Source: a virus. Taken from it: a stretch of 22,161 nt of DNA. The notes below the pieces were generated by a model. It was not told the DNA's origin. It did not search any database and saw only the letters and a program-made list of their open reading frames with translations. This document shows, piece after piece, positions 4,303-17,566 of the stretch. The stretch spans positions 1-22,161 of IMG/VR virus record IMGVR_UViG_3300035198_000031. One strand, written 5' to 3'. Position 1 is the first letter of the stretch, and each line of letters opens with the position of its first letter. The position numbers and the translations under genes are program-made.

Positions 4303-6243
4303 TCACTTTTTAGTTGCTGGTGAAGTTCCCATCTTTCTATGTTGGATTACTACATTCACAAATGCCTCGATTGATGGCAACCCTTTTGTCTGTGTGAGAT
4401 TATAGAAGCCAACTATTTCTTCATCGGTCAAAGGTGGCATATTTTTCCTTCTCAGACTTTCATCTACTCTGGCAATATAATTGCCATATAGTTTTCTAGC
4501 AGATGCTACTCCAAGTCGGAGAGCCTGATCTATTGTTGGTGTTTGTGCCTTTGGACTTTTAAGTTTTATGCTTTGCTCAGTGTTTATTTGATTCAAAATC
4601 TCTTGTTTCTGGTTAGCTGTAGATCCCATTTGATCCACACCCAATCCTACAATGTCTGGAGGCAATCCTCCTGCATGGACAACTCTTTTGGTTTCACTAT
4701 ACAATACATTATCTGGAGAAAGCCCGTAAGTGTTTGTAAATTCTTCATACTTTTTGGGGTCAATAAGGCTTTCCTTGGCTTCACGAATTATCTTAGTAGC
4801 TTCTTTTTCCTTAGCTGCTGTTTTAGCAGTCTCTTCTGCTTCCCTCTCACCAAACATTCCATATGCAGGAAAATGCTGTGTTGCAGCAAAGGTATATAAG
4901 TACGGGGCTATACGATTCCATTGGCTGGATGGCAATTTCTTTCTCAATTCAGCAATGTTATTTATTGTCTCTTGCTTCTTATATTCTTCTTCCCAGTGTC
5001 TGCCTTGCGTGAATACATTGTATTGTCCTAGCTGTCTTTGCCACTCAGCAGCCTCTGCAACATTGTTCTTTTTCAAAGCATCAGTAATCTTTTTCTTGAA
5101 GAAGTATTCAGGTTCAATAGCATGGGAGGGTATTTGCCCCGTCCATGCAAAAATCTCCATATCTTCCGGAGTAGTTAGACCAAGTTTGGGGGCAAGATCC
5201 CTAAGAAAATCAGCTTTGGTTTTCATCTTGTCTAGCTCAACCTGTGTCGGATCTACAGCAATCTTATACTTTTTAGTCTTTGGATCATACAAATGTTTCA
5301 CATCTTCCGGAGCAATGCCCCGCAATCTTGCAATTTCTGCCAATACAGGAGGATCATTAATTATTTGTTGGTGAGCATCAACCAAAGTCTGCAAAAAATG
5401 TAATCTATCAGATATTGCTCGGTTTTCAGCTTCCCTTCGTAAATCCATAGCCTTGCTTAGTGCATTGAATCTATTAATTCTCTCTTGCTGAGTAGCAGCC
5501 TGACCTTTTTCCCAATCAAGCCTTCTTTGAGCCTCCCGTTGCTGCCACAACTTTATCGGATCATAGCCCGCTGCCCTAGCCCCCATTAATGCCAGTACTT
5601 GCCAAATATCAGGCTTCTGGGGTGTATAAGGCTGCCATGTTTGTCCAGGAGGGAATGTAGATTCGTACAAACGCTGGTATTCTGATGCCCAATCCACAGG
5701 ACGTAGTGGTTCCCATGTGGGGAGTGTGGGGGGTGCAGCAGCTTCTCGTTCAGCTTGAGTAGGGAATTCAGGCTCGGGGTATGCAGGTACCATATATTCT
5801 GGAGGCACGGAAGCAGGAAATGGTAATCCCATTTCACTCATCCTCTGAGACAACTCTTCAGGCGTAACTGGTGTTCCAGGTACATATTCTGTGGGTACAG
5901 TAGCAGGGGGTACAATTGTGGGGGACGTTCTAGGTGCAGGAGCAACTGGAGCAGCCTGACGCTGTCTTGGAGTCGGAGTGGTTTTGGGTTGTATTGGAGG
6001 AACAGAAGGAGCAGGAACTGAGGTCGTAGTAGGTGCCGGAGCTGGGGGTAAAATGGGCAATGGGCTAAATGGACTGGCAGGAGATGTGGGAATACCAAGT
6101 TCCCGCATCAATAACAAATCAGCGTCAGTTAATGGCCTATCTGGAAATACTTCTCTAGAAGTAATTGGGGGAACATTAATTACTCCTGGAGATTCCTCCG
6201 GCTCTCCATACAATGAGTAATCAGGAAATTTAAATACTGCCAT
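4303..6243 (-). CDS. Proline-rich, helical internal virion/ejection-type protein (646 aa)
   Basis: Starts at ATG 6243 with an AAGGAGG site about 8 bases upstream. Residues about 45-190 are very rich in Pro, Ala and Thr and are surely a disordered linker. Residues about 210-620 are mostly charged, predicted-helical sequence with few Cys and no signal peptide or membrane segment that I can see. It sits between a Gly/Ala-rich 386-residue protein and a protein of more than 1431 residues; size and order match the middle member of podovirus ejection sets (T7 gp15, P22 gp20). I recognise no sequence motif of those families, so the role is from context only. Its stop is 8 bases before the next start and overlaps that gene's ribosome site. 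Confidence 0.85.
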   Translation of the reverse strand: MAVFKFPDYSLYGEPEESPGVINVPPITSREVFPDRPLTDADLLLMRELGIPTSPASPFSPLPILPPAPAPTTTSVPAPSVPPIQPKTTPTPRQRQAAPVAPAPRTSPTIVPPATVPTEYVPGTPVTPEELSQRMSEMGLPFPASVPPEYMVPAYPEPEFPTQAEREAAAPPTLPTWEPLRPVDWASEYQRLYESTFPPGQTWQPYTPQKPDIWQVLALMGARAAGYDPIKLWQQREAQRRLDWEKGQAATQQERINRFNALSKAMDLRREAENRAISDRLHFLQTLVDAHQQIINDPPVLAEIARLRGIAPEDVKHLYDPKTKKYKIAVDPTQVELDKMKTKADFLRDLAPKLGLTTPEDMEIFAWTGQIPSHAIEPEYFFKKKITDALKKNNVAEAAEWQRQLGQYNVFTQGRHWEEEYKKQETINNIAELRKKLPSSQWNRIAPYLYTFAATQHFPAYGMFGEREAEETAKTAAKEKEATKIIREAKESLIDPKKYEEFTNTYGLSPDNVLYSETKRVVHAGGLPPDIVGLGVDQMGSTANQKQEILNQINTEQSIKLKSPKAQTPTIDQALRLGVASARKLYGNYIARVDESLRRKNMPPLTDEEIVGFYNLTQTKGLPSIEAFVNVVIQHRKMGTSPATKK

Positions 6244-6255
6244 AGAGGTTCCTCC

Positions 6256-7416
6256 TTACAAAGCTAATAATGCCGCAGCGCCACCAGCCATACTACCAAG
6301 CCCACTCAAAAGACTTCCAATATTGAATCCTCCTCCGCCGCCACCAGCAGCTTTGCCAAATTGTCTCATAAGAGCTTCAACTCTGTTTTGTTCCCAAGGA
6401 TTGGGTATAGATCGGATGTATTCCATTATGGGTATCATTGCTGCCTGCTGAGACAGCCAGTCTTGGAATACTCTCTCTTGCTCTCGTCTGGGCGCCCACT
6501 GTGCTTGTAGCATTTGTGGTAGCAATACTCCAGGTGCGCCAATGGCTTCTAAAGCCGCCCGTCCTCCGGCTCGCCTCTCTTGCATTGCCTGTAATGCAGC
6601 CGCAAGGTTTTGAGCAGCTGCAGTCTGGCGCATTTGTGCGGCCTGCTGACGAATAGCAGCTTCTTGGGGAAGAATCTGTGCTAGCATATTTTGATATAAT
6701 TCCTGTGCCCCAACTTGTCGCCTCCCAGACAATCCTAACCGACCACCCATTGCCTGCTCAGCTTGCCGTGCCCACTGGTCAGGCAACATGGCTCGAATTT
6801 GCTGGTATGGCCCAAGGGCAGCCTGTATCTCACTACCAGGGTAGAAGTATTGCCATCCTTCTCTTCCCAAACTACCTACCCATCCCTGCTCAGCTGGCAG
6901 CTGAGCATAGCCTCCACTTTTAGCCAACTGCTGCAATTGGGCTAAAGCCGCAGGCGTATACTGCCCCATAAATTCTGTAGCTTGTTTTGCAGTTTGTTTC
7001 TCAATATCTGTCATCTTGCCAATAGGCCCAGCTTGCAGCCCGCCAGCATATTCTTCAGGCAGAGTACGTTGTTTTTTACCCTTACCAACAGTACCCCTCT
7101 GGGCAAGGGTAAGTGTATCCATAGCACTTTTGAGGGCTGGATACCACCTACTCCATCGTACAGCAGGTTCGGCATATCTGCTATATAGATCCGATGGTAC
7201 ACTAACTCCTCTACCACCCCCACCTTGACCCATAGCACCACCGAACAATGACGATAGTCCACCTAGCAAACCACCAACCCCACCAAGAACTTTTGACCAA
7301 TCAGTTTTACCACCCAAAGAATTCAAGAAAGATTGGTATGAAGGGTATCCGGCATTAGACAACATAGCTTGCCCTAATTCATAATCATAACCTGTTGCTG
7401 CATCCCAACCGTCCAT
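6256..7416 (-). CDS. Gly/Ala-rich internal virion-type protein (386 aa)
   Basis: Starts at ATG 7416 after a G-rich ribosome site (AGGGGGT). Residues about 43-70 form a Gly-rich hydrophobic stretch (repeated G-L-x-G) and the last 30 residues are again Gly-rich and hydrophobic. Between them lies a Gln/Ala-rich helical region (about 170-330). Short glycine-rich hydrophobic ends around a helical core are common in small ejection proteins that insert into host membranes (T7 gp14, P22 gp7 type). It is the first of three rising-size genes that likely form one ejection set. No homologue is recognised with certainty; a tail-length or minor head protein is possible. Confidence 0.82.
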   Translation of the reverse strand: MDGWDAATGYDYELGQAMLSNAGYPSYQSFLNSLGGKTDWSKVLGGVGGLLGGLSSLFGGAMGQGGGGRGVSVPSDLYSRYAEPAVRWSRWYPALKSAMDTLTLAQRGTVGKGKKQRTLPEEYAGGLQAGPIGKMTDIEKQTAKQATEFMGQYTPAALAQLQQLAKSGGYAQLPAEQGWVGSLGREGWQYFYPGSEIQAALGPYQQIRAMLPDQWARQAEQAMGGRLGLSGRRQVGAQELYQNMLAQILPQEAAIRQQAAQMRQTAAAQNLAAALQAMQERRAGGRAALEAIGAPGVLLPQMLQAQWAPRREQERVFQDWLSQQAAMIPIMEYIRSIPNPWEQNRVEALMRQFGKAAGGGGGGFNIGSLLSGLGSMAGGAAALLAL

Positions 7417-7771: not shown

Positions 7772-9342
7772 ACCAACGTCCGCCCTTTAGGCAAATAGTC
7801 AATTACTACACGGTGCAGTGTCCATGGCCTTGTACCCTGAACATCAAATGCAAATGCCCTTACATACTTTGTGAAGTTGACACGTCGCTCAAGCAAGTTA
7901 TTTGTTCCACACATAGTCACTGTATATGCCGATCCAGCAGCCGTACTTGGTTCAATCCAGTCCTTGTATATTGTAACTTGAGCCGACATAGATTCAGTTG
8001 TAGATTGCCTATCAAACAAAGCCGACAGCCTTGTTATTCGTTTGTTGTTTACCGAACTCCCAAAATCCATCCATATACTTCGCCATATACTGTTGAATTG
8101 CTTCCCATTGTCTGTATCTATATCACCAAATTGGTAAAGAGTTCGACCATATAGAGCAAGAAGCAACTGGCTTGATTTAGCTCCAATTTGTTCACCAATG
8201 ATAAAGTCATAGGAATTATATGGATCTGGAAAATTAGCATATATAATGTTTTCTCCCCAAGCTACTGCTCCAATAGCATCACAGGCTAAATCGTAAATTG
8301 ACCAACTTCCCAGCATCAAATCATAAACATAAACACGATTCTTTGTATCCGAACCATCTTCAGCAATAGATACCCAAATTTGCTGATGTTTTTCATAATA
8401 TACTACTTCAGATATACTTGCTGCATTATGATTGAAATGTAACAAGAACCTATCCCTAACTTTATCTGATAGGTAAGTGATAGTATTTCCATCATATGAA
8501 TACAGACCATCATTGGCCAGAAAGTACAATATTCCACGTACTTCCACTACAGCACGAGGCCCCACACACCCAACATGGGTGCTTACTCTAACAAAGTCAA
8601 ATAACAGGCTACCTCCAACCCATTGAACGTTAAAGATTTTATTATACTTGAACACAACCAGCACATCACGAAGCATCTTCATGGCGGTAATAGAGTCGCC
8701 ATCATCGGGATCTAAATCCAAGTAGTAAGAATCTGGCCATGTCCATTTATCCCCAACTTGATTCCAGTACACACGGGAATGTTGCCTAATACCACTTACA
8801 AGTACATTGCCCAAGAATATATATCCATACCATGTTGCTAATGTTTTAGACCCACTGGGTGCTCCACTAAGATAAGTTGGAATATCTGATGTATTGCCAT
8901 TCCAAATCCATGGGCACATGTCACTCCCACAGATAAAGACTCCAGATCCCTCATATGTCGAAACACCAACATTAGAAGCTGAAGTTGTCCACCATCCCGT
9001 AGGGCCGGCTGTAGATGCACACAATATCCTAGTTAAAGTAGCCGGACTGCCAAACAATGAGTATATTTCCCCGCTTACACCAGTTGAAGCAGGATATGTA
9101 AACACAAGAGTATAATCCTTATTTTGGTAATCTGTAAATTGCCCAATTCGGCAAATGTTGTTGCCAGTAGCTACCACAGCCGAAGAACTGACGGTAGCAT
9201 ATCCCATGCGCCTGCTGACTGTCCCCCTGGGATAAAATTCAACATTGTATGCACATGTGGCATCAGTGATTGCCAGTTGTACCTTGCTCGACACTGCATT
9301 GCTATGTAGTCCGCCAACAAATTTATCAATCACTAAAAGCAT
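7768..9342 (-). CDS. Large beta-rich tail/connector protein, beta-propeller-like (524 aa)
   Basis: Starts at ATG 9342 and overlaps the end of the upstream fibre gene by 10 bases. The sequence is almost all beta: repeated hydrophobic strands with Trp/Tyr and Gly-Asp turns. An N-terminal segment (about residues 31-48) has the N-V-x-F-Y-P-x-G-T-V pattern and the middle (about 285-310) has G-x-L-Y-F-L-A-N-D-G-L-Y. These patterns are typical of a family of podovirus tail or head-closure proteins (P22 gp10-like stabilisation proteins). A tail-hub or neck component is likely. Assignment rests on these patterns and on position after the adaptor and fibre genes. Confidence 0.85.
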   Translation of the reverse strand: MLLVIDKFVGGLHSNAVSSKVQLAITDATCAYNVEFYPRGTVSRRMGYATVSSSAVVATGNNICRIGQFTDYQNKDYTLVFTYPASTGVSGEIYSLFGSPATLTRILCASTAGPTGWWTTSASNVGVSTYEGSGVFICGSDMCPWIWNGNTSDIPTYLSGAPSGSKTLATWYGYIFLGNVLVSGIRQHSRVYWNQVGDKWTWPDSYYLDLDPDDGDSITAMKMLRDVLVVFKYNKIFNVQWVGGSLLFDFVRVSTHVGCVGPRAVVEVRGILYFLANDGLYSYDGNTITYLSDKVRDRFLLHFNHNAASISEVVYYEKHQQIWVSIAEDGSDTKNRVYVYDLMLGSWSIYDLACDAIGAVAWGENIIYANFPDPYNSYDFIIGEQIGAKSSQLLLALYGRTLYQFGDIDTDNGKQFNSIWRSIWMDFGSSVNNKRITRLSALFDRQSTTESMSAQVTIYKDWIEPSTAAGSAYTVTMCGTNNLLERRVNFTKYVRAFAFDVQGTRPWTLHRVVIDYLPKGRTLV

Positions 9343-11162
9343 GGATCTCCCATCCTGTGTATAACAATGTATGATCGATTTACGCCGGCTTCAATACTAT
9401 CATGTGCTCCATACTTTGTAGCACAAACAATTGCCGAATCAGAACTACACATTAGTGCCACGGCTTCTAGAGTAGTTGTGTAATGCTGAGAATCAGTTGA
9501 CATACCTGGAAATTCCCGCATTTGATAACGTTTAACCGACCCATCAGCACTAAGGATGTCCAGTTCAATGCCATTCCAAGGAGGTACGGGCATGTAGAAG
9601 GCTTTTATGGCTGCTCCCGCAGCAGATAACCCCTGCCCTGGGTACACACTTCCCCAAAATCTAGCACTATATATAGGATAGGTTACGTTAGATGAACGAG
9701 AAATTTGATCTCTAACCCACTGAGTACTATAGACACGATATGGAGATGTTATTGTATTACTTGTCCATGTAACACTATTCATAATGGATGTATTAAATTC
9801 TATTGTTGTTGCCCATGTCAATGCTGTCCCAGATAGACCACTACCAAAACTTACGCCAAACCGCGGCCACCCATACCCAACAGCCGACAGAGCTTTTGCT
9901 GTAACTTCAACTGTCAAATAATTGATACGCGCACTTGGGGGTACGGTATCAAAAACAGGATAAACAGATGTGTATAGATCTTCCCACGACGAACTCGTAG
10001 ACACCCACATATAAGTAGAATCACTACCATCTCCTAATGCATCGGCATTAGACCTATCATAATAGTTACAGAAATTTGTCCGTATTCTCGTAACTCGCAT
10101 CTCTCCAGTAGTTCGGAAATCTTCAGCACATACTGCTACTCCACGGATATTACACAAATGATATGAATCCCAATATCCAGAAGTTACAGGATTGTATTCC
10201 CAGTAATAGTTCGGAAAAGTAGTTACAGGCCAGTCTGCGGTAACAAGTATACTATCTGACCAATAAGTGGTTGTAGGATATGCTCCCGCACCAAATATAA
10301 GTCCTACCCTAACATATCCCGTACTGGCTGTAGTTCGTGCCCTGACATACACTCTAACCCCAGATACTGGTCGAACATTACTTGTGATAGTAGGAGTTTG
10401 AAAGTAAAAATTATAGTATGATCCCGTACTGGAAGTATAAATGTATGTTGAATCATCATTATCAGATATAAGTTCGTAGGCTTGTTTATCAGGATTGGAA
10501 CGAGACCACCCGCTATAGCTTCCATCTGCACTTGGAAATATATTGTCTTTTGAAGTAAGGGTTGCAGAGGAAGTTCTCCATTCATCCTTCCCATACATTG
10601 TGGGGTCAATATACCAGCATTTAGCTGTTAGTATAGTTGAAGTAGCAGTACCTGGAGTTGTTATTGCCGATGCACCCGTACATGATAGGCATATCCCAAA
10701 GTAATAATTTCCACGGGTCTTTGGTACAAAATACCCAGTTGTGTGGTTATATGATGACAAAGTGTCATATTGTTCTGTGTCAAAAACAACTAATTTTGCT
10801 ACTTCTGCCCCAGTAATTGCCCCCTCAGTAAAATCCAGAGCAGTACCCAATGATGCACGTACTCTATCCCATTGATCTTTGCCTAATGCCTGCCAGCTAT
10901 TATCCCAATAAGTGAGCAAAACTCCCTTGTCTTCGACTTCAACCAATGCCCCACTCACGGGTATAATATCACTTGTCACAGCATAGGACGATACTGCCAT
11001 TGCAGCAACTCGTCCTGCAATATGCCTACCAGACAGAGATGAGCTAAATCCATAATGTTCCTTCTCCAAAGTTGCTGATAGCGCCTGGAAATTCTCCCGT
11101 GTTTCACGTGGAACATCTCGTATATTGGAATCAGAACTTGGCTTACCTGCACTCCATGCCAT
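9333..11162 (-). CDS. Long fibre/receptor-binding protein with internal duplication (609 aa)
   Basis: I chose the ATG at 11162, which overlaps the previous stop as TAATG; an upstream in-frame start at 11252 would lie inside the previous gene. Residues 1-95 match the N-terminal module of the two preceding fibre genes (W near the start, K-P, N-F-Q-A-L, H, G-R-H). Residues about 120-185 resemble the first half of a C1q/TNF-like jelly roll (V-V-F-D-T-E, then G-Y-F-V-P-K). Residues about 530-604 resemble its second half, ending in I-V-I-H-R. In between are two related beta modules at about 215-365 and 366-525, sharing D-S-T-Y and V-G-(L/V)-x-F-G-(A/S)-G. A receptor- or glycan-binding role is inferred. 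Confidence 0.9.
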   Translation of the reverse strand: MAWSAGKPSSDSNIRDVPRETRENFQALSATLEKEHYGFSSSLSGRHIAGRVAAMAVSSYAVTSDIIPVSGALVEVEDKGVLLTYWDNSWQALGKDQWDRVRASLGTALDFTEGAITGAEVAKLVVFDTEQYDTLSSYNHTTGYFVPKTRGNYYFGICLSCTGASAITTPGTATSTILTAKCWYIDPTMYGKDEWRTSSATLTSKDNIFPSADGSYSGWSRSNPDKQAYELISDNDDSTYIYTSSTGSYYNFYFQTPTITSNVRPVSGVRVYVRARTTASTGYVRVGLIFGAGAYPTTTYWSDSILVTADWPVTTFPNYYWEYNPVTSGYWDSYHLCNIRGVAVCAEDFRTTGEMRVTRIRTNFCNYYDRSNADALGDGSDSTYMWVSTSSSWEDLYTSVYPVFDTVPPSARINYLTVEVTAKALSAVGYGWPRFGVSFGSGLSGTALTWATTIEFNTSIMNSVTWTSNTITSPYRVYSTQWVRDQISRSSNVTYPIYSARFWGSVYPGQGLSAAGAAIKAFYMPVPPWNGIELDILSADGSVKRYQMREFPGMSTDSQHYTTTLEAVALMCSSDSAIVCATKYGAHDSIEAGVNRSYIVIHRMGDPCF

Positions 11163-11950
11163 TATATCACCCGTGTAATTTTCAATGTGCTTGGCATACC
11201 ATATGATGCAGCACAACCATAAACCATGATATACCAGGTATATGCTTCGCATTGCATGTAAAGTTGTTGCCCAGCAGATAAAAAGATAGTGTCACTATAT
11301 GATATACTATACCATGGTGCTGCACCTAATTTAATTGATGTGCCATCTTCCTCATATATTGACGGTATATAGCTTGATGTTAAAATATAGGATACATGCC
11401 CGTCACCTGATATTGCCGAGCCGTCAACTCTGGGGTATAGATGTATCCATAAATTTGTATGTGATACTGTAGTATATGGTCGAGCGGCTGCTGTAGCCTC
11501 AACACGAAACAGTCCGCTGGCTTTGGGTGTAAAAACACCAGAATTAAATTCTCCCAAACTATCTAACAATTCAGTATCATATAGTACATTAACCGTTGGA
11601 AGCACGCCAGAACACAGTGGTACAGACAGATATGCAATAACATGAGATGTAGGACTTGCTTCAGAAAAGAATTTCCAATCAGGAAATACTCTGATTGCCC
11701 CCTTATTTTCATCCCATGCCATTGCCCCACTTGGAACATTACTCAAGGCAAGAATCTCGGCTGAAGTACCCTTATACAATACGGGAATCTTTCCTGCCAG
11801 ATGCATTCCAGCAGAGGCCGAATCCATACCCTCATGTCCAGTAGCAATTGCGGATTCTAATGCCAACCAGTTATTGCTATGAACCAAGGGTATATCAACA
11901 ATTTCTGTTCCCGTAGTGGGTAAAGTTTTATCCCAAGTTTGGTATGGCAT
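11162..11950 (-). CDS. Fibre protein with C1q/TNF-like C-terminal domain (262 aa)
   Basis: The ATG at 11950 overlaps the upstream stop (TAATG). Residues 1-60 are the shared fibre N-terminal module (N-N-W-L-A-L-E, then A-G-M-H). Residues about 105-262 are a beta-sandwich of C1q/TNF type: N-V-L-Y-D-T-E, then G-V-F-T-P-K-A-S-G-L-F, and strands ending in L-K-I-T-R. The V-(L/V)-(Y/F)-D-T-E and F-x-P-K signatures match the first half of the split domain in the next gene, so the two are paralogues. C1q-like heads trimerise and bind ligands, so a receptor-binding tip is likely. Confidence 0.88.
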   Translation of the reverse strand: MPYQTWDKTLPTTGTEIVDIPLVHSNNWLALESAIATGHEGMDSASAGMHLAGKIPVLYKGTSAEILALSNVPSGAMAWDENKGAIRVFPDWKFFSEASPTSHVIAYLSVPLCSGVLPTVNVLYDTELLDSLGEFNSGVFTPKASGLFRVEATAAARPYTTVSHTNLWIHLYPRVDGSAISGDGHVSYILTSSYIPSIYEEDGTSIKLGAAPWYSISYSDTIFLSAGQQLYMQCEAYTWYIMVYGCAASYGMPSTLKITRVI

Positions 11951-12672
11951 TAGGATAACCTCTCAACAAGCAGCATTCCATACTTACCAATTTCAGCAGA
12001 ACTAGTATGGTCGTGATAGGCACAAACACAAACAGTAGTACCAGCAGCTAGATAACGTATGTCAAACACATTTAATGCCAGATATTGGTAATAATCTGGG
12101 TTTCCTTCCCGATCTTCAATCTTCAGATACTTTGATGTATATGCTAGCCATGTGCCATTAATGTTGCACGTAATTGCAATAACACGATGGTAGTTTGCCT
12201 GGTCGTCTTTCCAGTGTACGTTGGCCTGAATTCTATAATAACCGTTAAATGGAATAGTAATTATAGTTGTATCATCTGTAATTCCAAGAGGGTCGTACAC
12301 TACATTATTGAAAGGAATTGGTGTCCAAGTTGTTGGCTGAATTGTGATACCTGTTATGGTATGAGTACGAAAGGCTTTGGCTGCATAGCCCATTAGGACA
12401 TTAGACCATGCTGAAGTTGCAGTAGAATAAATCTGGAATACACCACTTGCAGTATCGGCTCGGAGTGCTCCATGCCCAATATCACCCGTTATTTCAGAAG
12501 AGCCTACATATAACACTCCCATTGGCCCATAGTGTACTCCAGCACTATCGGCAGACAGTGATCCATGTTCAGTGCCTATGTAGTCCTCTAAAGCCTGCCA
12601 ATTGGCTTTGATGTCCTCTACACTGGCACTTACGCCGTCTGTATCTGCAGGTTTATTTGCATTCCAGCCCAC
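11950..12672 (-). CDS. Fibre protein with C1q-like C-terminal domain (240 aa)
   Basis: Starts with GTG at 12672. The ATG two bases upstream is out of frame and a GGTGGGGG site precedes it. The N-terminal module (residues 1-55: W-N-A-N-K-P, N-W-Q-A-L-E, H, A-G-V-H) is shared with the two following genes and probably joins fibre to virion. Residues about 98-240 match C1q order: A-F at the start, P-I-P-F-N-N-V-V-Y-D, then I-P-F-N-G-Y-Y-R-I, a middle pair of strands, A-A-G-T-T-V, and a final G-M-L-L-V-E-R. It is the closest of the three to standard C1q. Confidence 0.88.
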   Translation of the reverse strand: MGWNANKPADTDGVSASVEDIKANWQALEDYIGTEHGSLSADSAGVHYGPMGVLYVGSSEITGDIGHGALRADTASGVFQIYSTATSAWSNVLMGYAAKAFRTHTITGITIQPTTWTPIPFNNVVYDPLGITDDTTIITIPFNGYYRIQANVHWKDDQANYHRVIAITCNINGTWLAYTSKYLKIEDREGNPDYYQYLALNVFDIRYLAAGTTVCVCAYHDHTSSAEIGKYGMLLVERLS

Positions 12673-13976: not shown

Positions 13977-14363
13977 TTATCCTCCTTTCTCCTCATCCTG
14001 TTTGAGGAGTTTTAGACGTGTTATATAAACAATATTGGTATCTTCCGATGGAGTGTTGGTTTTCTCTTCCCAAAATTCAATGCCAACCGTTGCTTGATCT
14101 TTACGCACTCTCAAATAAGGCAAAACAGACTTCAGGAATAAGTAGGCTTTCTTATCCTTCCATCTGGCCCTATACTGTGAATCATGGCGCTGGATAAAAG
14201 CCCCAAGTGCCTGTAAAGTTTCAATGAGTTTAAAGTTCTTATGTGTTACCCAAGCAAACAGTGAAACACCAGAGGTTTTGGGTTCGATCTTTACACATCC
14301 CCCAACATCGAATACCCCACCAACATAAGCCAATAACTCTTTATTAGATTTAGTATCTTGCAT
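13977..14363 (-). CDS. Stand-alone degenerate LAGLIDADG-fold protein (128 aa)
   Basis: ATG at 14363 has a strong AGAGGAGGT site. Residues 13-22 read Y-V-G-G-V-F-D-V-G-G where active endonucleases have (Y/W)-L-A-G-L-x-D-x-(D/E)-G, so the catalytic acid position holds Gly21. The rest keeps the fold: H-K-N-F-K-L-I-E-T-L (about 42-51) and F-L-K-S-V-L-P-Y-L-R-V-R-K-D-Q-A (about 76-91), the usual C-terminal helix pair of single-motif LAGLIDADG enzymes. It is not in an intron: it sits between the MCP stop with its stem-loop and the zinc-finger gene. Its last codons carry the next gene's ribosome site. Cleavage activity is unlikely; DNA or RNA binding is possible. Confidence 0.82.
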   Translation of the reverse strand: MQDTKSNKELLAYVGGVFDVGGCVKIEPKTSGVSLFAWVTHKNFKLIETLQALGAFIQRHDSQYRARWKDKKAYLFLKSVLPYLRVRKDQATVGIEFWEEKTNTPSEDTNIVYITRLKLLKQDEEKGG

Positions 14364-14421: not shown

Positions 14422-14751
14422 TTAGCCAGTCACCCCGTACAGTTTACCGTGTTTCTGTTCGTTGTGGAACTCCATTCCAACTTCACAAATATACTGATCC
14501 TTAAAAGAATCATCACCAGGAAGCTGGATGTCGGTCTCCAACTGAACGTCACGGTTCTGGAGATAGCGATATACGAGGTCTTCTAGTTCAACTGCAAATG
14601 CGTACCCAGCATAGTAGCTGGTACTGGTTGTGCTACCAGCATGTTCCAATAGCACTTCCTTCACCAGGTTAACCACACCATGTGGACTAATATACTGAGT
14701 AACAGCAATCCCGTAAGAACGGTCTTTGGGGAACATCTGCAGTTTTCCTTG
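14422..14751 (-). CDS. MCP exon 4
   Basis: Codons 290-398 and TAA. It begins Q-G-K-L-Q-M-F-P-K-D. An ATG inside it at 14736 could be mistaken for the start of a separate 104-residue gene, but it has no ribosome site and the upstream residues belong to the capsid motif. Confidence 0.9.
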   Translation of the reverse strand, partial: QGKLQMFPKDRSYGIAVTQYISPHGVVNLVKEVLLEHAGSTTSTSYYAGYAFAVELEDLVYRYLQNRDVQLETDIQLPGDDSFKDQYICEVGMEFHNEQKHGKLYGVTG

Positions 14752-17566
14752 CTTGTGTTATCTCTAATTACTTAGAGTGTCGGACTATGTCTTCATCCAC
14801 ATTGGATGTGTAGCATATAGTCTCTACGGATTCGAGGCACTTCCGTTTCTGCTTCTTCAATACATTGTATAACTTAATGTAATCCTTAACATTTTCTTCA
14901 GAAGCACCCTTGACTCCATATATATTATTGGAGTACCCGTACTTCTGTATGTAAGAAATTACATATTCAGCAGAACGCTTCGTACGAGTAAGATCGTTTA
15001 CCAATAAGTGCAATAATTTCAATATTTCGCTTTTCTTAGCTATAACGATCTCTGCCGTGTGCTTAGAACATCCATCTCTATATTTATATTCAATGCCCTC
15101 ACTTCTAAGTAGCTGACCTACTTTTTCCATAAGTAAAGTTGAGCCATTGGTAATAATTACACGGATGTCAAAGTGGAAACGCCCATTACTTTTTCTATCA
15201 TGTTCTGGCTTCCACGGCTTAGAAGCATGAATGCATCCTTCACCATCAAGGACTCCAGCTAACCAGCCTATATCCTTGTCATTCATGGATTACCTCGTCT
15301 TTCCTCGGCGTTAACCCGTGGGTCTTCACCGATATAGCTACATTTATTACTGCATAATTGCTTATGCAGAGGCCCAAGGTTGAGCCCACTGACTGACTAC
15401 CGAAATAATCAGCGGAGAAGCAAACAGGTATCTGGTATCTCCACCATACCTGAACACTGATCTCAAGAAGCCTTCAAATTCAGCCTCTGTGAGAACGCCC
15501 CCAGCATTGGTTGCATTGGTGCTGATATAGTAGTTAATACCACCCGAAGTTCTTCGTGGATGGGTCAAGCTAGTGTCAGTAGATCCCGTATCCTGCAAAG
15601 GTTCACCATAGAGGAAAGTCCTCTCCAGCTCTCTCATTAGCTCAATACCTTTCTTCTTCCTCTGATAGTCTCTATCGGGGCCTCCGTAGAGTTCGGTATT
15701 GGCCAATGTACGAGTAATCTCCACAGATTTACGGAAAATCTGACAATAGTTAGTAGCCGATGCGACCTTTGTTGACTTTGTTGCCAAAGTACTGTACAAA
15801 GATCCTTCTTCAAAAGCTGAACCAACAATCAGCAAGTTAGACCCTGCTGTTGCTGTTGCGGCTGCGGTTGTACCGTAACCTCTCACTGCAGTAAAGCCAG
15901 TAGTAGAGGAAACGCTGGTAATCAACAGCATTTCCCCAGTTTCAATGACCTTCACCAAGTCATACTTATTCAGTATGCCTGGAGTAGAAGATGAAATCGT
16001 ACCCGTCGTGCAAGTCGACCCGCTGAGATCAACAGCCAACGTCGTCCACGAGGGATTAAGAACCAGTTATGTTATCCTAATATTACTATTAGGCTCGGAC
16101 TTTATCTTCACTGATGTGTTTCACATAAAGTCTCTGAGGAGCGGAGTTCTGAAAGATCCAATACTTCATTGGCCTTTCGTGATAATCTAGACATATCATA
16201 TCGTGCATGCTTGGCTGCTTGGAAGCTACGTATTAACTTGTCTACATAGGCCCTATCGATATAATCTTTGTATCTGCCATCAGGCCCTCGTTTCTTGATT
16301 AATTGCTCTCTATAATTCGCATACTCTAACAAAATATCAACTTCAACTTTCTTAGTTTGCATATAGGGCCTAACTGCTTCAAGAAGTACTTTTGCGCTTC
16401 CCACTGAATTACACTTAATTGTTATCTGATCTGCCCATTTCCCTTTACCTTTAGACCAAATATAATGGAACTTAATACCCAGCCTCTTCCATATTTCGCT
16501 AACTGCTCTAATCAAATAGGGATTGGTATTTGCAACATGAACTGTAATTGTAGTGAAGACAGCACTGTAATCTCTTCCAGTGGGGACACGCCTTTCATAA
16601 CTTAATGAAAGACATCCCTCACCTTCTAATATCGCAGCCATCCATGCTTTCTCTTGCTCCGATACCACATAAACTCCTTTCCTGCGGATTGCCCCAGCTA
16701 GTAGATTATTACATTGCGTACTGCCGCTATAGGGTATCCCCGCACATGGTGAAATTTATAGAGAACGTTTATATCACATCCTCTAGCCAATAGAACTGAG
16801 GGTTAATGGCAGGTCGCTTGTTCAGCTTTGAAACCATAACGTACAAAGGAGCAGCATTGGGTTCCAAAAGGTAGATCTTCAGTTGAATCCAACATATCGC
16901 TATGTTGCTTAGACTATACCTTCATCTCTAATGGAAGAGATGCCGTACGTTGAAGTCGTTGAGGGTTGACAGTCTTCACTCTAAGAGAAATGAGTCTGTC
17001 TACATACTTGACTTGAAGTTTTTGATATTCTTCAATTGGCATTCTCTTGCCGTGACAGGCTCGCATTTCTTTATTAAATTCTCTTAGTAGTTCAGCTTGG
17101 TCTTTCTTAGCAACTAGGAATTCATGTATTAGATCAATTACTTTATCTGTACTCCCCTTACCAACACACACTATTGACAGTGCAAATCCAGAAGCAGTTT
17201 TCTTGAGTTGGTAATAAAACTTGCAACCCAATTTATATAGAATCTTACTAACTTCTCTGATAATCCGAGCATCCGCATTGGTTACTGCGATACATGATCT
17301 AAATGTCACTTTATTCCTAGTCAACTTATGCCTGACAATCATTAATGATCCTTCACCTTCAATGATTGCCGCCAACCAAGCTGCCTCTTCCCTGCTGATT
17401 TGCTCCACCATATTCTTTTCCTCTTTGGGGTTTTGGATACAGAGCCGTTCCAGCATTTGGTACGGTTTAACGCCGACTAGATTGTTCGTCCATCGGCCAT
17501 ATCAATTACCTTACGTTCTGCCCTAACTAGACCCGTACCCGCAGCTCCAATCATGGTTACTGCCAT
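14422..17566 (-). CDS. Major capsid protein, gene split by three group I introns (398 aa after splicing)
   Basis: ATG at 17566 follows an AGGAGGTG site. Coding exons are 17566-17492, 16888-16778, 16063-15383 and 14751-14422 (residues 1-25, 26-62, 63-289, 290-398). Joined, they read without a stop through motifs typical of HK97-fold capsids of this class: L-L-E-P-N-A-A-P-L, then P-Q-F-Y-W-L-E-D in exon 2; E-I-T-R-T-L-A-N-T-E-L and R-E-L-E-R-T-F-L-Y-G-E in exon 3; and exon 4 with G-K-L-Q-M-F-P-K-D, Y-L-Q-N-R-D and H-G-K-L-Y-G-V at the C-terminus. Each exon alone runs into a stop inside the next intron. It lies directly after the scaffold gene, as expected. Expression must depend on three splicing events. 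Confidence 0.93.
14752..15382 (-). ncRNA. Group I intron 3 of the MCP gene (631 nt) with LAGLIDADG gene
   Basis: P1 pairs exon-end GGGCU with guide GGCCU (15374-15370), ending in U.G. The five bases just 5' of the guide, CCUUG (15379-15375), pair perfectly with the first five bases of exon 4, CAAGG: a clear P10. P2 is an eight-base-pair stem with a GCAA loop. P3 is UGUAGC (15342-15337) with GCUACA (14814-14809). P4 is UCGGUG/CGCCGA and P5 ACCC/GGGU. P6 is CGAGG/CCUCG. P7 is GACUAU (14822-14817) with AUAGUC (14788-14783). P9 has a GUAA loop (14777-14762). The terminal G is 14752. Confidence 0.94.
14768..15286 (-). CDS. LAGLIDADG homing endonuclease in intron 3 (172 aa)
   Basis: ATG 15286 has a GAGGT site eight bases upstream that also forms part of P6. 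The motif at residues 8-17 (W-L-A-G-V-L-D-G-E-G) is the closest of the three to consensus, with catalytic Glu16. One motif and 172 residues suggest a homodimer. The last 22 codons (from about S-V-E-T-I-C to the end) are also the ribozyme's P7, P3', P8, P7' and half of P9; the stop codon TAA falls in the P9 GUAA tetraloop. The likely target is the intron-less exon 3/4 junction of the capsid gene. Confidence 0.91.
   Translation of the reverse strand: MNDKDIGWLAGVLDGEGCIHASKPWKPEHDRKSNGRFHFDIRVIITNGSTLLMEKVGQLLRSEGIEYKYRDGCSKHTAEIVIAKKSEILKLLHLLVNDLTRTKRSAEYVISYIQKYGYSNNIYGVKGASEENVKDYIKLYNVLKKQKRKCLESVETICYTSNVDEDIVRHSK
15383..16063 (-). CDS. MCP exon 3
   Basis: Codons 63-289, from V-L-N-P-S-W-T-T to S-Q-W-A. 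A TTG at 16039 could look like a start but has no ribosome site; the capsid frame simply continues from the exon's 5' end. Past 15383 the frame runs seven codons into the intron (Q-P-W-A-S-A then stop). Confidence 0.9.
16064..16777 (-). ncRNA. Group I intron 2 of the MCP gene (714 nt) with LAGLIDADG gene
   Basis: P1 pairs exon-end AGAGGAU with guide GUUCUCU (16766-16760), seven pairs ending in U.G. The bases just before the guide (AAC) can pair with the first bases of exon 3 (GUU) as P10. P3 is UUUCAC with GUGAAA. A P4-P5 region with GCGGGGAU and AAUCCGC lies at about 16746-16685. P7 is GACUUUAU (16132-16125) with AUAAAGUC (16105-16098), eight perfect pairs. P9 is a seven-base-pair stem with a GUAA tetraloop (16093-16076). 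The terminal G is 16064. Confidence 0.92.
16108..16668 (-). CDS. LAGLIDADG homing endonuclease in intron 2 (186 aa)
   Basis: Starts with GTG at 16668, five bases after AAAGGAG; the nearby ATG at 16670 is out of frame. The single motif at residues 9-18 (W-M-A-A-I-L-E-G-E-G) places catalytic Glu17. Later parts show the fold's strand-helix pattern, with V-A-N-T-N-P-Y-L-I-R-A-V (about 49-60) and M-Q-T-K-K-V-E-V-D-I-L (about 101-111). The gene begins in the P6 loop. Its last codons (S-S-E-T-L-C-E-T-H-Q) encode the P7 5' strand, P3' and P8; the stop ends three bases before the P7 3' strand. A homodimer cutting the intron-less exon 2/3 junction is expected. Confidence 0.9.
   Translation of the reverse strand: MVSEQEKAWMAAILEGEGCLSLSYERRVPTGRDYSAVFTTITVHVANTNPYLIRAVSEIWKRLGIKFHYIWSKGKGKWADQITIKCNSVGSAKVLLEAVRPYMQTKKVEVDILLEYANYREQLIKKRGPDGRYKDYIDRAYVDKLIRSFQAAKHARYDMSRLSRKANEVLDLSELRSSETLCETHQ
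16778..16888 (-). CDS. MCP exon 2
   Basis: Codons 26-62, a 111-base exon from I-Q-L-K to Y-W-L-E-D. Both junctions fall between codons. It has no start or stop of its own and is recognisable only by its capsid motifs. Confidence 0.88.
16889..17491 (-). ncRNA. Group I intron 1 of the MCP gene (603 nt) with LAGLIDADG gene
   Basis: P1 pairs exon-end GCCGAU with internal guide GUCGGC (17477-17472), giving a U.G pair at the splice site. P3 is CCGUAC (17465-17460) with GUACGG (16948-16943). P4 is GCUGG with UCAGC, the latter inside the endonuclease gene. P7 uses GACU (16957-16954) and the S element AUAGUC (16917-16912). P8 is AUCUCU/AGAGAU (16941-16924). P9 is a seven-base-pair stem with a GCGA tetraloop (16907-16890). 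The intron ends in G at 16889, and the exons then join in frame. Confidence 0.9.
16914..17411 (-). CDS. LAGLIDADG homing endonuclease in intron 1 (165 aa)
   Basis: I chose ATG 17411 because AGAGGA lies about 8 bases upstream; an earlier in-frame ATG at 17456 has no site and would overlap P3. One motif at residues 12-21 (W-L-A-A-I-I-E-G-E-G) puts the catalytic acid at Glu20. One motif and 165 residues mean it should work as a homodimer. The later V-A-K-K-D-Q-A-E-L-L segment (about 113-122) is the usual C-terminal family helix. The first codons overlap P4/P6 and the stop codon TAG lies within the P7 S element, so the gene shares most of the ribozyme core. The likely target is the intron-less MCP exon 1/2 junction. 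Lys and Arg are plentiful, as in DNA-binding proteins. Confidence 0.9.
   Translation of the reverse strand: MVEQISREEAAWLAAIIEGEGSLMIVRHKLTRNKVTFRSCIAVTNADARIIREVSKILYKLGCKFYYQLKKTASGFALSIVCVGKGSTDKVIDLIHEFLVAKKDQAELLREFNKEMRACHGKRMPIEEYQKLQVKYVDRLISLRVKTVNPQRLQRTASLPLEMKV
17492..17566 (-). CDS. MCP exon 1
   Basis: Codons 1-25, ending ...V-I-D-M-A-D with GCCGAT at the splice site. If unspliced, only four more codons follow before TAG. Confidence 0.88.

Follow-up and report, generated by a model that had tools for sequence, protein, structure and literature searches.

The window analysed here is the whole of IMG/VR record IMGVR_UViG_3300035198_000031, a linear virus fragment of 22161 bases, the minus strand of which encodes a head and tail module in the order TerL, portal, scaffold-like gene, major capsid protein (MCP) gene, small gene, and tail genes (Table 1). 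Every ORF in this module is open. The MCP gene is present as four coding pieces, separated by three putative group I introns that each contain a LAGLIDADG ORF, and is followed by a free-standing LAGLIDADG-derived gene. Matches of TerL and portal to cultured phages are all below 30% identity, and searches of cultured phages with the endonucleases of window intron 2 and of the intron in a related contig (L015) give zero matches; the single match in bacterial genomes is a distant MCP in a Nitrospirae MAG. In the tail region (positions 9333-12672, minus strand), three adjacent ORFs begin alike (N-W/F-QALE...H-G...SAG-H), as if these shared N-terminal segments were one duplicated domain.

Table 1. 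Coordinates and properties of the MCP gene, its introns, and associated LAGLIDADG genes in the window.
Feature	Position	Strand	Properties
MCP gene, four coding pieces	17566-14422	minus	
MCP exon 1	17492..17566	minus	75 nt, MAVTMIGAAGTGLVRAERKVIDMAD; last base U; junction with exon 2 reads MAD/KIYLL, the family consensus
MCP exon 2	16778..16879	minus	102 nt; start corrected to 16879
MCP exon 3	15383..16063	minus	681 nt; Pfam SU10_MCP E 1.2e-25
MCP exon 4	14422..14751	minus	330 nt including stop; Pfam SU10_MCP E 1.7e-10
Group I intron 1	16880..17491	minus	612 nt, ends in G; RF00028 E 6e-4
Intron 1 core	16960-16882	minus	window-excluded model E 4.3e-11
Intron 1 pairings		minus	P1 GCCGAU/GUCGGC; P3 AUGCUG/CGGCAU; P8 and P9 paired
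Intron 1 LAGLIDADG endonuclease	16914..17411	minus	motif LAAIIEGEG
Group I intron 2	16064..16777	minus	714 nt, ends in G; RF00028 E 8e-4
Intron 2 core	16135-16068	minus	window-excluded model E 3.4e-11
Intron 2 pairings		minus	P1 UAGAGGAU/GUUCUCUA, 8 bp; P3 UUUCAC/GUGAAA; P7 GACUUUA/UAAAGUC; P9
Intron 2 LAGLIDADG endonuclease	16108..16668	minus	motif MAAILEGEG
Group I intron 3	14752..15382	minus	631 nt, ends in G; RF00028 E 1.2e-7
Intron 3 core	14825-14753	minus	window-excluded model E 1.8e-10
Intron 3 pairings		minus	P1 GGGCU/GGCCU; P3 UGUAGC/GCUACA; P7, P8, P9; P10 CAAGG/CCUUG (direct reading)
Intron 3 LAGLIDADG endonuclease	14768..15286	minus	motif LAGVLDGEG; Pfam LAGLIDADG_1 E 6e-5
Free-standing LAGLIDADG-derived gene	13977..14363	minus	just 3' of MCP; catalytic acid replaced (FDVGG)

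The joined capsid protein

The four exons join in frame without a stop, as the initial annotation had proposed, although the product has 395 aa rather than the 398 aa first given, owing to a correction at the first junction. The junctions 16778/16063 and 15383/14751 stand, whereas 17492/16888 is replaced by 17492/16879. At this position, MAD-KIYLL or an equally long close variant is found in every uninterrupted homologue compared (L005, L006, L007, L010, L012, L014, and others; 60-67% identical), whereas the earlier join reads MAD-IQL-KIYLL. Because the three extra residues (IQL) are absent from all homologues, the 3' splice site of intron 1 was moved by 9 nt, from between 16889 and 16888 to between 16880 and 16879; the terminal base of the intron thereby becomes G, the base with which group I introns end. 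Differences between the MCP genes of the window and L004 number 94/45/221 by codon position, which indicates purifying selection on the spliced frame.

The products of exons 3 and 4 both carry the PHROG label major head protein. A 12-member MCP family profile aligns along the full length of the Vibrio phage VP1 capsid, a solved structure (9in6, E 3.4e-41), and with part of the head protein of SU10 (7z45, E 1.5e-7), both being distant in sequence. Together with the Pfam SU10_MCP matches, this homology supports an HK97-type fold for the joined protein; AlphaFold gives a pLDDT of 35 for an intronless homologue, for which the alignment is too shallow. The protein has full-length homology to known MCPs and its gene lies between scaffold and tail genes, as expected of an SU10-like MCP. 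To our knowledge, no introns have been reported in the VP1 or SU10 capsid genes.

Exons 3 and 4 each have possible internal starts, so that the MCP pieces might be translated separately; alternatively, the insertions might be inteins. Either would be most improbable. Stop codons separate the exon frames from the endonuclease frames, such that there is no continuous polypeptide from which an intein could be excised, and scans against Pfam and PHROG give no match to an intein (Hint) domain; the intein reading was rejected on both counts. Furthermore, the boundaries in related MCP genes obey the U...G rule of group I introns at sub-codon phases, which speaks against separate pieces as well as inteins.

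Intron RNAs and splice sites

An Rfam scan of the window at gathering thresholds detects zero introns. A local search with RF00028, the covariance-model check proposed in the initial annotation, recovers all three by E-value (Table 1), with each falling short of the 50 bits required for gathering, since its core is divided by the endonuclease gene. Over 18 related records, RF00028 matches are confined to those with an interrupted MCP, with 0 matches in the intronless ones. A covariance model of the intron core, trained on 19 introns of other contigs with the window excluded, matches the window at exactly three places, namely the three intron ends; in 31 intronless MCP loci (368 kb) it identifies no core at E<0.05, the best being a weak match at E 0.1.

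The helices P1, P3, P7, P8, and P9 that had been read from the sequence alone are paired in all three introns, with full pairing of P3, P7, P8, and P9 in the segments tested; for P4, which was tried in intron 2 with a guessed segment, pairing is incomplete. At the proposed sites, P1 has a mean length of 6.4 bp, compared with 3.4 bp for swapped exons and 3.5+/-0.25 bp for shuffled introns (maximum 4.7 in 2000 shuffles). P10 comprises 4, 3, and 5 bp in introns 1, 2, and 3, respectively, and its mean over the set is 4.2 bp vs. 2.1 bp with swapped exons. An alignment of the 3' core of 22 introns from MCP genes of the window's family, which share ancestry, has 93.4% of P7/P9 cells paired (69% when shuffled) and a P7/P9 covariation score of 0.621 (0.153+/-0.024 when shuffled; slid controls <=0.126). 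All three window introns have a U.G pair at the 5' splice site in P1 and G as the last base; the same is true of the introns of relatives, which were delimited using that rule.

From these features we infer that the MCP transcript of the window is spliced. A decayed phage or prophage, in which endonuclease insertions have broken the capsid gene and the introns splice no more, would be in keeping with the seeming cost of three insertions in one essential gene. We regard this as very unlikely, given that the codon positions of the exons show purifying selection, the ORFs of the head and tail module are all open, the splice-site pairings are intact in 3/3 introns, and the same architecture recurs with different introns in ten other contigs.

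LAGLIDADG proteins and their target genes

The ORF in each window intron encodes one LAGLIDADG motif, including the catalytic acid, and resembles I-MsoI and I-CreI in length and layout. By itself, Pfam gives weak matches for two of the three; a profile of the endonuclease family matches I-MsoI (E 4.5e-12), and also I-CvuI and I-CreI. These enzymes are like the window proteins in having a single motif per protein and in being located in group I introns, but their introns lie in algal organelle rRNA genes. The intact motif suggests that the window intron proteins are active endonucleases. For intron 1, the start was placed at the second in-frame ATG with its ribosome site, the ORF itself opening upstream at 17456. 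The 3' ends of the endonuclease ORFs overlap P7/P3/P8, and thus the core RNA of the intron and the protein share sequence. All four LAGLIDADG-type proteins of the window match PHROG phrog_5046, the HNH endonuclease label of which looks wrong.

The fourth of these proteins is encoded by the free-standing gene, relatives of which (41-49% identity) occur directly or shortly after the MCP gene in 12 other contigs, including intronless ones. Its profile aligns both to the intron endonucleases (hhalign 95.5%, E 1.4e-8) and to I-CreI-type chains (E 1.5e-8). The catalytic acid is replaced in 13/13 post-MCP copies (by G, L, I, A, H, or V), whereas intron proteins nearly always retain it. The product is predicted to be a catalytically dead LAGLIDADG protein, with a possible maturase or DNA-binding role.

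To survey target genes, only the endonuclease alignment was used to search IMG/VR, with no regard to the host gene, and loci with an intron core were retained. Among the 30 loci in which the interrupted ORF was annotated, 26 are major head proteins and 4 have no match; another identified gene is found in 0 of the 30. The 26 head proteins belong to several unrelated PHROG families (1357, 1328, 334, 371/133, 10/617, 9953, 267). By contrast, scanning for the RNA core motif GATGATATAGTCCGAAC irrespective of gene and endonuclease yielded 30 loci that comprise 12 head proteins, 9 other named genes (two DNA polymerases, RNR, ThyX, dUTPase, terminase, portal, tail tube, and glycosyltransferase), and 9 without assignment. 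Head vs. other among identified genes is therefore 26:0 for the endonuclease search and 12:9 for the RNA-core scan (Fisher P 2e-4, for loci that are non-independent and loosely de-replicated), and we treat the capsid bias of the endonuclease lineage as a lead rather than a measured rate. A bolder reading, which we consider speculative and rather unlikely, is that this LAGLIDADG intron lineage is specialised for capsid genes across unrelated families, and that the dead protein encoded after the MCP has been domesticated by phages of the window's group, either as a trans splicing helper for all capsid introns or as a shield of the capsid gene against cutting.

Probable homing in related phages, and known systems

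Introns were placed exactly in the MCP genes of ten further related contigs, and the window's phage group has 0-7 MCP introns at about 16 insertion sites. One intron each is present in L004, L011, L015, L016, and L017; two in L013 and L066 (one uncertain, one interrupted by the contig end); at least two in L067; and five in L020, including two without an ORF (L020:4724-4943, 220 nt, and L020:4977-5147, 171 nt), of which the latter would be unusually small for a group I intron. The MCP gene of L105 (L105:3881-10546) is divided by seven group I introns into eight exons, of which three measure only 23, 36, and 32 nt; when spliced by the U...G rule, it gives a perfect 395-residue family protein. 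Rfam intron signal is present at 7/7 of these introns, which carry single- and two-motif LAGLIDADG genes, and in one intron the gene precedes the guide sequence.

Most introns at the same site carry mutually closest endonucleases. The endonuclease of window intron 1 is 70% identical to that of L011, that of intron 2 is 59% identical to that of L020, and that of intron 3 is 52% identical to that of L067 and 80% identical over 94 aa to that of L066 (L197 is the L066 contig). Window intron 1 and L004 have a common site and unrelated endonucleases (34%), and two sites separated by 14 nt in L004 and L015 hold endonucleases of one lineage (80%).

A pair of alleles bears on the intron of a relative rather than on the window introns. 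Identity between L071 and L054, the latter being the contig of L004, is 99.86% across 5818 bp and 100% across 240 bp further downstream; a single, precise 732-nt intron at the predicted site (site 1) sets the two apart. They also differ by three synonymous changes, all within the final 7 nt of the exon before the insertion (P about 1e-7 relative to the background). This pattern would be the expected trace of intron gain by homing with co-conversion: the patch beside the insertion fits gain, whereas loss via spliced RNA would have retained the intron-plus flank. The pair also bears on assembly or binning artefacts, a concern insofar as every sequence derives from metagenome assemblies. Such artefacts are a negligible prospect, given alleles that differ by one exact intron, the same design in independent contigs of many metagenomes, and homologous introns at the same site in different phages.

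The reading that we favor, at a probability of about 0.94, is that the MCP gene of the window contains three group I introns that are spliced out and encode homing LAGLIDADG endonucleases, and that this gene is a recurrent target. It is supported because the three U/G junctions restore the family protein, and the corresponding claim of a capsid gene with three LAGLIDADG group I introns holds up by homology, RNA covariation, splice-site rules, and intron-minus relatives. A late transcript would carry the interrupted MCP gene, with each intron folding around P3-P9 and its internal guide sequence forming P1 with the last bases of the preceding exon (U.G at the cleavage point). A two-step reaction initiated by guanosine would excise each intron, to give one 395-residue HK97-type capsid protein. 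The I-CreI/I-MsoI-like proteins presumably cut intron-free capsid genes at the insertion site, and repair would then copy in the intron plus a short flanking exon segment. The window would represent one member of a phage group in which the capsid gene is a repeated intron target.

Several known systems share parts of this design. In mycobacteriophage LittleE, the MCP gene contains a single intron with a LAGLIDADG gene, and its splicing in vivo was demonstrated by RT-PCR together with N-terminal sequencing; like the window, LittleE has a probable group I intron in the MCP gene and an I-CreI-like LAGLIDADG protein, but the intron is single and the endonuclease gene is on the opposite strand (PMC3706429). 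Among crAss-like phages, MCP introns occur in the Delta group, and the MCP of OLRF01000054 (Zeta group) is in five pieces (Yutin 2021, PMC7886860). These metagenomic phages resemble the window in a multi-exon MCP gene with introns of group I type, but belong to an unrelated order, their MCP is not SU10-like, and three of the four gaps carry intron-type domains (PMC7886860); relatives of the window reach seven introns per MCP gene, compared with the five pieces of the crAss-like MCP. Twort orf142 and the DNA polymerase or terminase genes of Bastillevirinae have up to three introns per gene (PMC11878797), as does the window, albeit in other genes and mainly with HNH endonucleases. Jug phages have numerous group I introns, and metatranscriptomes support the splicing of 37 of the 76 tested (PMC12363816). 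Published MCP introns (PMC7886860, PMC3706429) and genes with three introns (PMC11878797) mean that the rarity initially ascribed to the window was overstated. Our search of the open-access literature turned up neither a phage gene with seven introns nor a LAGLIDADG lineage biased toward capsid genes.

Few genes of a phage are normally expressed as strongly as the capsid gene. Tolerance of three introns here (and seven in a relative, with one exon of 23 nt) is a demanding test of the efficiency and accuracy of phage self-splicing. The fragmented MCP, with standard Rfam cut-offs that miss every intron, explains how capsid genes are lost in the automatic annotation of viral metagenomes. Near-identical genomes with and without an intron constitute a natural homing experiment, and the concentration in capsid genes, with a conserved dead relative alongside, makes it testable whether these elements are selfish passengers or useful parts.

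Other contigs have unusual arrangements. L211, L273, L263, and L268 each have 4-6 intron cores within a few kilobases, with a link to the MCP in L263 and L268 only. In L128 and L129, the MCP is of a distant SU10-like type and its gene contains four intron cores, one apparently just past the second codon. In L085 (8592-9272), an intron core and LAGLIDADG ORF lie 3' of the MCP stop codon and are followed by a repeat of the last codons (MLTGVTG-stop), by which the MCP C-terminus could be identical with or without splicing; a search for P1 of this intron found no convincing one. L099 has an extra intron (5980-6770) directly after the second MCP codon (ATGGTT/.../ACTATG), upstream of which is a duplicated MCP N-terminus fused to a lysine-rich tail.
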